From Chitinophagales bacterium (lineage in GTDB: Bacteria; Bacteroidota; Bacteroidia; Chitinophagales; JADJOU01), in the NCBI GenBank assembly GCA_030832185.1, contig JAURJQ010000016.1, positions 1 to 64,000 of the forward strand: a stretch of DNA of 64,000 nucleotides, in the 5' to 3' direction. The notes beneath the pieces were generated by a model, which did not search any database, was not told the origin of the DNA, and saw nothing but the letters and a program-made list of their open reading frames with translations. This document shows, piece by piece, positions 15,093 through 15,270 of this stretch (position 1 is the first letter of the stretch; each line of letters starts with the position of its first letter). The position numbers and the translations under genes are program-made.

Positions 15093-15115
15093 TTTTTTTA
15101 TGCATCAAAGTTCTT

Positions 15116-15206
15116 CGTGTAAACGAGTTGCTCTGATGCTGACGAAGCTTTGCTTGTCAGCATGCCGACATTTATCGTCGGCAACCAGCCTTGAAGCTAA
15201 GCGCCC
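15116..15206 (-). pseudogene. partial copy of the tRNA-Val 5' half, split by a double hairpin
   Basis: On the minus strand GGGCGCTTAGCTTC..GGCTGGTT is followed, after 47 inserted bases, by CAGAGCAACTCGTTTACACG. Aligned to the tRNA-Val just downstream, this is the acceptor 5' strand, the D arm and the anticodon arm with the UAC anticodon; the break is exactly in the D loop. The variable and T arms and 3' acceptor strand are missing. The acceptor strand here (GGGCGCT) would pair without a wobble to the 3' strand of the real tRNA. It lies between promoter and tRNA, so it should be transcribed. Confidence 0.75.
15136..15182 (-). repeat. double-hairpin insertion in the tRNA half copy
   Basis: Forty-seven bases made of two stems back to back: ATGCTGAC(G)AAGC with GCTTGTCAGCAT (12 bp, one bulged base), and GCCGAC with GTCGGC (6 bp, 7-base loop). 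The two parts of the tRNA half flank it on both sides. Confidence 0.8.
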
Positions 15207-15212
15207 TTTGAA

Positions 15213-15248
15213 TTTGTTCGTTTTTGCGAACAAAGGCGTACTGCCTTT
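15213..15248 (-). other. two further hairpins in the tRNA-Val leader
   Basis: TTTGTTCG / CGAACAAA (8 bp, 6-base loop, 15213-15234) and AAAGGC / GCCTTT (6 bp, 5-base loop, 15232-15248) share three bases, so they may be alternative folds. Both lie between the promoter box and the tRNA half copy. Confidence 0.6.
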
Positions 15249-15262
15249 TTCAAAAGCGAGTG

Positions 15263-15270
15263 CAAATATA
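15263..15270 (-). promoter_or_regulatory. -7 promoter box of the tRNA-Val unit
   Basis: Reads TATATTTG on the minus strand. It is the only consensus box between the YCII gene and tRNA-Val and implies a leader of about 165 bases. Confidence 0.6.

Follow-up and report, generated by a model that had tools for sequence, protein, structure and literature searches.

A hairpin-broken half copy of tRNA-Val as the likely footprint of a palindrome and GIY-YIG nuclease element associated with tRNA genes in the Bacteroidota

The broken tRNA copy in front of a valine tRNA gene in a Chitinophagales bacterium is best read as the footprint of an apparently undescribed kind of small mobile element, found across the Bacteroidota, that places short palindromic hairpins, and often a tiny GIY-YIG nuclease gene, into tRNA genes while leaving one intact tRNA behind. 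We hold this reading with reasonable confidence from comparative evidence, although cleavage and mobility are inferred. The window analysed is the 64,000 nucleotide stretch at positions 1 to 64,000 of contig JAURJQ010000016.1 (assembly GCA_030832185.1, genome G000 below), and all coordinates of the locus refer to it.

Structure of the tRNA-Val leader

An earlier note, made from the sequence alone, described a structured leader before tRNA-Val that contains the 5’ half of the same tRNA, broken in the D-loop by 47 bases forming two hairpins, with two more hairpins upstream. Everything it described is present, and lies on the minus strand. The unit begins with a promoter-type box of the Bacteroidota -7 type, TATATTTG, at 15270-15263, whose promoter role is inferred. 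The same box and the same following bases (CACTCGCTTTTGAAAAAGG) are found in the related genomes G001, G002 and G003 and before tRNA-Asn, and the box and first 18 nt of leader (TATATTTGCACTCGCTTTTGAAAAAG) are the same before tRNA-Val (15207-15270) and tRNA-Asn (loci L003 and L022), suggesting a shared stable-RNA promoter and leader element. A leader with two small predicted hairpins follows at 15262-15207, outside the inserted cassette; it has diverged between species and is also present in G003, which lacks the cassette.

The displaced copy of the 5’ half of tRNA-Val occupies 15206-15113. Its first part, the acceptor 5’ strand and the D arm up to GGT, lies at 15206-15184 (GGGCGCTTAGCTTCAAGGCTGGT) and has homologous copies in the retrieved loci L010 and L011. 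The interruption at 15183-15137 is exactly 47 bp and consists of two tandem hairpins of the form TGCYGAC..GTCRGCA: hairpin 1, TGCCGACGATAAATGTCGGCA, at 15183-15163, and hairpin 2, TGCTGACAAGCAAAGCTTCGTCAGCA, at 15162-15137. A hairpin identical to hairpin 2 lies in the D-loop of a tRNA-Val(GAC) copy in G002 (locus L015). The half copy resumes at 15136-15113 (TCAGAGCAACTCGTTTACACGAAG) with the rest of the D arm and the anticodon arm with UAC, including a 20-nt match to tRNA positions 21-40 at 95%. The insertion is clean, standing between GGT and TCAGAGC against GGTTCAGAGC in the intact gene, with no duplication or loss of target bases. A 20-nt spacer at 15112-15093, with one difference among G000, G001 and G002, leads to the intact tRNA-Val(UAC) at 15092-15016, which was identified by ARAGORN and by Rfam (RF00005, 64.3 bits) and is identical in G001, G002 and G003. 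A terminator-like hairpin, AAAGTCATCTC..GAGATGACTTTTTTT, follows at 15013-14980.

The half copy is not exact, having three extra bases in the D arm (AGCTTCAAGGCTGG for AGCTCAGCTGG) and a damaged 3’ anticodon strand (CGAAG for CGAGG). Chance is excluded as the source of this arrangement: a GCCGAC..TCGGC hairpin has an expectation of 0.07 in the window, the leader folds at z = -4.6 with 0 of 200 shuffles as good, and the same half copy stands before the same tRNA in two other species.

The same locus in related genomes

Two sister species, G001 and G002 (G002 is MAG JAJTHM01, Sphingobacteriales bacterium CoA8_V48), carry the half copy before the same tRNA, with a further palindrome, TCCCGATWATTATCGGGA, nested in the loop of hairpin 1. 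Outside hairpin 1, the cassette differs from that of G002 at 3 of 97 sites and from that of G001 at 5 of 97 (counted by hand), while fourfold sites of neighbouring genes differ by 51% and 57% (Fisher P = 2e-11 and 4e-19). The note had set decay of the stems in related genomes as a ground for rejecting its idea, and by this test the stems are kept rather than decayed. The closest relative of G000, G003, lacks the half copy: its leader joins the intact tRNA directly, TTCAAA being followed at once by GGGTGCTTAGC. The cassette is thus either under constraint or has spread recently, and its absence from the closest relative favors spread or instability, although G003 could also represent a precise deletion between the two tRNA repeats rather than an empty site, so that gain and loss are not polarized.

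The note further proposed that the half copy, whose acceptor GGGCGCT pairs without a wobble with the 3’ acceptor strand of the real tRNA, could compete during folding, feed RNase P or RNase Z processing, or act as a stable small RNA; this interpretation is only partly supported. Folding of the isolated transcript does let the half copy take the 3’ acceptor strand of the real tRNA in G000 (P about 0.97) and in G001 (0.92), but not in G002 (0.05), and such calculations are weak for tRNAs, the tRNA’s own acceptor pairing reaching only 0.65 even in G003. The wobble-free acceptor is private to G000, being GGGTGCT in G001 and GGGTACT in G002, and G003 has the same promoter leader and tRNA with no half copy, so acceptor competition is neither needed nor conserved. 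We therefore consider a functional leader RNA, kept for tRNA-Val folding or processing or as a small RNA, to be unlikely, despite the strong conservation of the cassette against diverged neighbors, which could also mean a function. RNA-level roles are not needed to explain the anatomy, and no tRNA-Val-specific regulator explains why the same kind of hairpin-broken copy occurs at many unrelated tRNA genes, as 3’ pieces downstream as well as 5’ pieces upstream. This recurrent arrangement at many different tRNA genes and in 5S copies, tied to a nuclease family, points to a mobile element rather than a regulator or small RNA of this tRNA.

Partial tRNA copies with palindromes flank many tRNA genes

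The window locus is one case of a widespread pattern. In this genus, partial copies of the same tRNA flank Val-TAC, Val-GAC, Asn, Ala, Arg, Met, His and Ile genes, with palindromes at the D-loop, anticodon arm, variable region or T-loop. In two genomes, the pieces upstream were 19 from the 5’ part and 0 from the 3’ part, and the pieces downstream were 1 from the 5’ part and 11 from the 3’ part (Fisher P = 1.4e-7). The outer ends keep the original promoter or terminator, and one intact tRNA remains. A control comparison between different tRNAs also gave hits (37 in 335, against 31 in 67 for self), because tRNAs share motifs, and the claim therefore rests on this side rule and on gene-specific pieces rather than on raw hit counts.

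The double hairpin, or a near relative of it, occurs in the D-loop of the Val-GAC copy in G002, in two tandem Arg copies in G001 in the opposite orientation, and in T-loop pieces of Val-TAC. The presence of both orientations points to movement as DNA. A strict pattern for the exact double hairpin found only this genome among 395 of the phylum, so the exact double hairpin is local while the palindrome families and the nuclease are broad. The hairpins are not limited to tRNA genes: in G001, 5S rRNA copies (Rfam 5S, 85.6 bits; locus L225, positions 32-144 and 270-295, 628-653) carry a TCCCTACACAGTGTAGGGA hairpin and type B hairpins (defined below) at or near their 3’ end, in two tandem units, and in G002 (locus L235, near 1501) type B hairpins abut what looks like a 5S 3’ end, although this was not found by Rfam.

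Partial copies are common after tandem duplication of a tRNA gene, and tandem arrays of tRNA pieces, by whatever cause, were seen for His, Val-GAC, Ala and Pro, including six units of about 80 bp, each the first 25 nt of tRNA-His plus TCCCGCAGGTGCGGGA, upstream of the intact tRNA-His in G001 (locus L113, contig C8, about 73274-73692). Ordinary tandem duplication followed by decay, with the hairpins as unrelated chance or slippage products, is nonetheless very unlikely, since the inserts are members of two palindrome families shared between different tRNA genes, species and both orientations, they track the nuclease clade, they are concentrated near the nuclease ORF, and their stems covary.

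A small GIY-YIG nuclease gene lies beside the tRNA in relatives

In G000, tRNA-Asn, and in G001 and G002, Val, Met, Lys, Phe and other tRNAs, are followed within about 60 bp by a small GIY-YIG ORF, often with the displaced 3’ piece of the tRNA beyond it. Where a related element carries its gene, the ORF of roughly 80-100 aa stands 30-60 bp from an intact tRNA on the same strand, and the displaced piece of that tRNA lies beyond it with the palindrome at or near the junction. Among 80 named loci found by searching with these proteins, 61 lie within 400 bp of a tRNA, all on the same strand (42 tRNA then ORF, 19 ORF then tRNA), against about 1% expected by a rough estimate. In evenly drawn genomes of the phylum, 14 of 18 further loci lie within about 260 bp. 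Same-tRNA pieces with palindromes flank most of these loci; loci with the ORF before the tRNA mostly have 5’ pieces before the ORF, and loci with the tRNA before the ORF mostly have 3’ pieces after it. These counts rest on sequence searches and on the loci retrieved by them. Loci labelled Parcubacteria, Terrybacteria, Kerfeldbacteria and one further bacterium (L153, L156, L191, L196) carry a related GIY-YIG ORF about 35 bp before tRNA-Met, with a 5’ piece of the same tRNA upstream in three of them, which may indicate transfer between phyla.

Three of the ORFs matched PF01541 (E 6.7e-15, 2.8e-14 and 2.4e-9), which fixes the fold, while NCBIfam gave no curated name, only a sub-threshold group I intron endonuclease hit. 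Residues of catalytic type, with roles assigned from those of I-TevI, are invariant wherever aligned (Y5, in 98 of 98 aligned rows, Y16, G18, R26, H30 and E62), and dN is well below dS, so the enzymes look active from sequence. The ORFs are little more than the GIY-YIG domain, with no recognizable DNA-binding domain. In G000, a GIY-YIG ORF follows tRNA-Asn (loci L003 and L040, contig C6, 32003-32560) and its C-terminus (LAQLVRVPHVRD) is encoded by a hairpin-bearing tRNA-Asn copy, so that a tRNA copy supplies coding sequence and stop codon.

Palindrome type follows nuclease clade

Two palindrome types occur, type A, TCCCG..CGGGA, and type B, TGCNGAY..RTCNGCA, both of which were defined after looking at the loci. 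Within about 700 bp of the ORF there are 113 type A and 20 type B palindromes in 111 kb, and beyond about 1 kb there are 1 and 1 in 192 kb, so that palindromes are about 195 times denser near the ORF. On a tree of 101 nucleases all type B loci form one branch, types A and B needing one change (shuffle mean 11.4, 0 of 500 shuffles; branch support 98). Type A hairpins at one position of tRNA-Asn copies covary fully in the inner stem, with compensatory changes (14 of 14 paired, covariation 0 of 500 shuffles).

The hairpins in the window are type B, and a type B GIY-YIG insert sits downstream of this same tRNA-Val in G001 and G002. In G002, a hairpin nearly identical to the terminator-like hairpin of the window stands after the displaced 3’ copy, beyond the GIY-YIG insert, as an insertion into the tRNA predicts. 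No type B nuclease was found in G000, where only the Asn-type GIY-YIG gene and UvrC were detected, and the window copy would thus be an ORF-less relic or a non-autonomous copy.

The tie between palindrome and nuclease is not exclusive. Type A palindromes (21 in G000, against 1 for a reversed-pattern control; loci L240-L254) also lie in intergenic DNA away from tRNAs, often next to terminator-like hairpins. It is therefore possible, though we think it unlikely, that the palindromes move by themselves, as a REP/RPE/DHE-like repeat served by another enzyme, and that the GIY-YIG genes are separate hitchhikers that also prefer tRNA genes; the type B hairpins in 5S copies and the lack of an ORF in the window copy fit this view. 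Against it stand the perfect clade-wise match of palindrome type and nuclease, and the position of the palindromes at or near the junction of displaced tRNA pieces beside the ORF.

Proposed mechanism and comparison with known systems

The comparisons establish the anatomy of the insertions, their association with the nuclease, the side rule, the covariation and the patchy presence, whereas what follows is inference, including the cleavage, the mobility, the target and any transcription or processing of the leader. We propose that the nuclease acts at its cognate palindrome, or at the tRNA loop it occupies, and makes a break, and that recombination with a tRNA-bearing copy then inserts or amplifies the cassette and regenerates the tRNA. 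In this view, a tRNA gene is a safe site because RNase P and 3’ processing trim any leader or trailer off the intact tRNA, and the outcome tolerated by selection is one intact tRNA with broken halves outside it. No movement was observed. A difficulty is that the intact tRNA next to each ORF has an uninterrupted sequence, for Val identical to that of element-free relatives, so a classical homing enzyme that cuts intact tRNA genes would cut its own host, which argues for recognition of the palindrome or of DNA structure rather than of the intact tRNA.

The experimental precedent is phage T4/T6 SegB (PMC13096335, PMC2988022), a free-standing GIY-YIG homing endonuclease that lies next to tRNA genes of many isotypes and whose nuclease activity is required for tandem amplification of a tRNA segment by recombination (PMC13096335). 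The ORFs described here likewise lie next to tRNA genes, which are inferred to be their target, and would work like SegB-type homing by analogy. SegB is a phage protein, and no palindromes, hairpin-broken tRNA pieces or rule of 5’ pieces upstream and 3’ pieces downstream came up for it in the accounts consulted, whereas these ORFs are chromosomal and tied to palindromes. A phage source was not supported: no phage record matched the Val-type protein, and only two weak viral-contig hits were found.

Rickettsia palindromic elements (RPE; cited in PMC6649704) are also selfish palindromes inserted inside genes without destroying the host function. They are described as insertions inside protein-coding sequence, while here 16-26 bp palindromes sit in loops of displaced tRNA and 5S copies and are linked to a nuclease clade; the window copy lies in a non-coding tRNA piece, although in relatives one palindrome ends a nuclease ORF by way of the tRNA copy. 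Mitochondrial double-hairpin or repetitive hairpin-forming elements (PMC2800124) share the two adjacent, repeated hairpins, as seen here with further copies in G001 and G002, and are also found near tRNA genes and inside rRNA genes. They are organellar, with no associated nuclease and no displaced host-tRNA pieces in the account consulted, while the window is from a chromosomal contig of a Bacteroidota genome with MutS, CarA and thiolase neighbors. REP/RAYT (TnpA-REP) systems also combine an enzyme with dispersed palindromes in bacterial chromosomes, but the REP enzyme is a Y1 tyrosine transposase, and here the linked enzyme is GIY-YIG and the sites are tRNA loops.

Conventional integrative elements of the tyrosine-recombinase type also bring a tRNA piece and regenerate the gene, but a scar of such an island at tRNA-Val is very unlikely. 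No integrase was found among the ORFs around the site, which are MutS, PhnA-domain, PF12843, YCII, CarA, thiolase and DinB-type genes; the pieces are 5’ as well as 3’, the breaks hold palindromes, and in relatives the neighboring ORF is a GIY-YIG nuclease.

Significance

Literature searches, limited to open-access papers, found no description of bacterial tRNA/GIY-YIG/palindrome elements. The inferred element would work like SegB-type homing combined with selfish palindromes, without being established as a member of any of the named families. A more far-reaching reading, which we consider possible but slightly less likely than not, is that it represents a new class of minimal mobile element, widespread in Bacteroidota and seen in a few CPR bacteria, in which a single-domain GIY-YIG nuclease recognizes its own clade-specific palindrome, as cruciform or hairpin DNA, and uses it to enter the loops of tRNA and 5S genes, regenerating one intact RNA gene at each insertion and leaving hairpin-broken tRNA halves, such as the one in this window, as footprints.

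The finding would explain a recurrent but apparently undescribed feature of Bacteroidota genomes, namely tRNA genes flanked by broken copies of themselves, tiny GIY-YIG genes beside them, and dispersed TCCCG..CGGGA palindromes. It gives a testable nuclease-palindrome pair and extends the recent finding that a phage GIY-YIG homing endonuclease amplifies tRNA segments to bacterial chromosomes. It also warns that tRNA-like hairpin leaders and small ORFs next to tRNAs, some with C-termini encoded by tRNA copies, should not be annotated as regulators or host proteins without this check.
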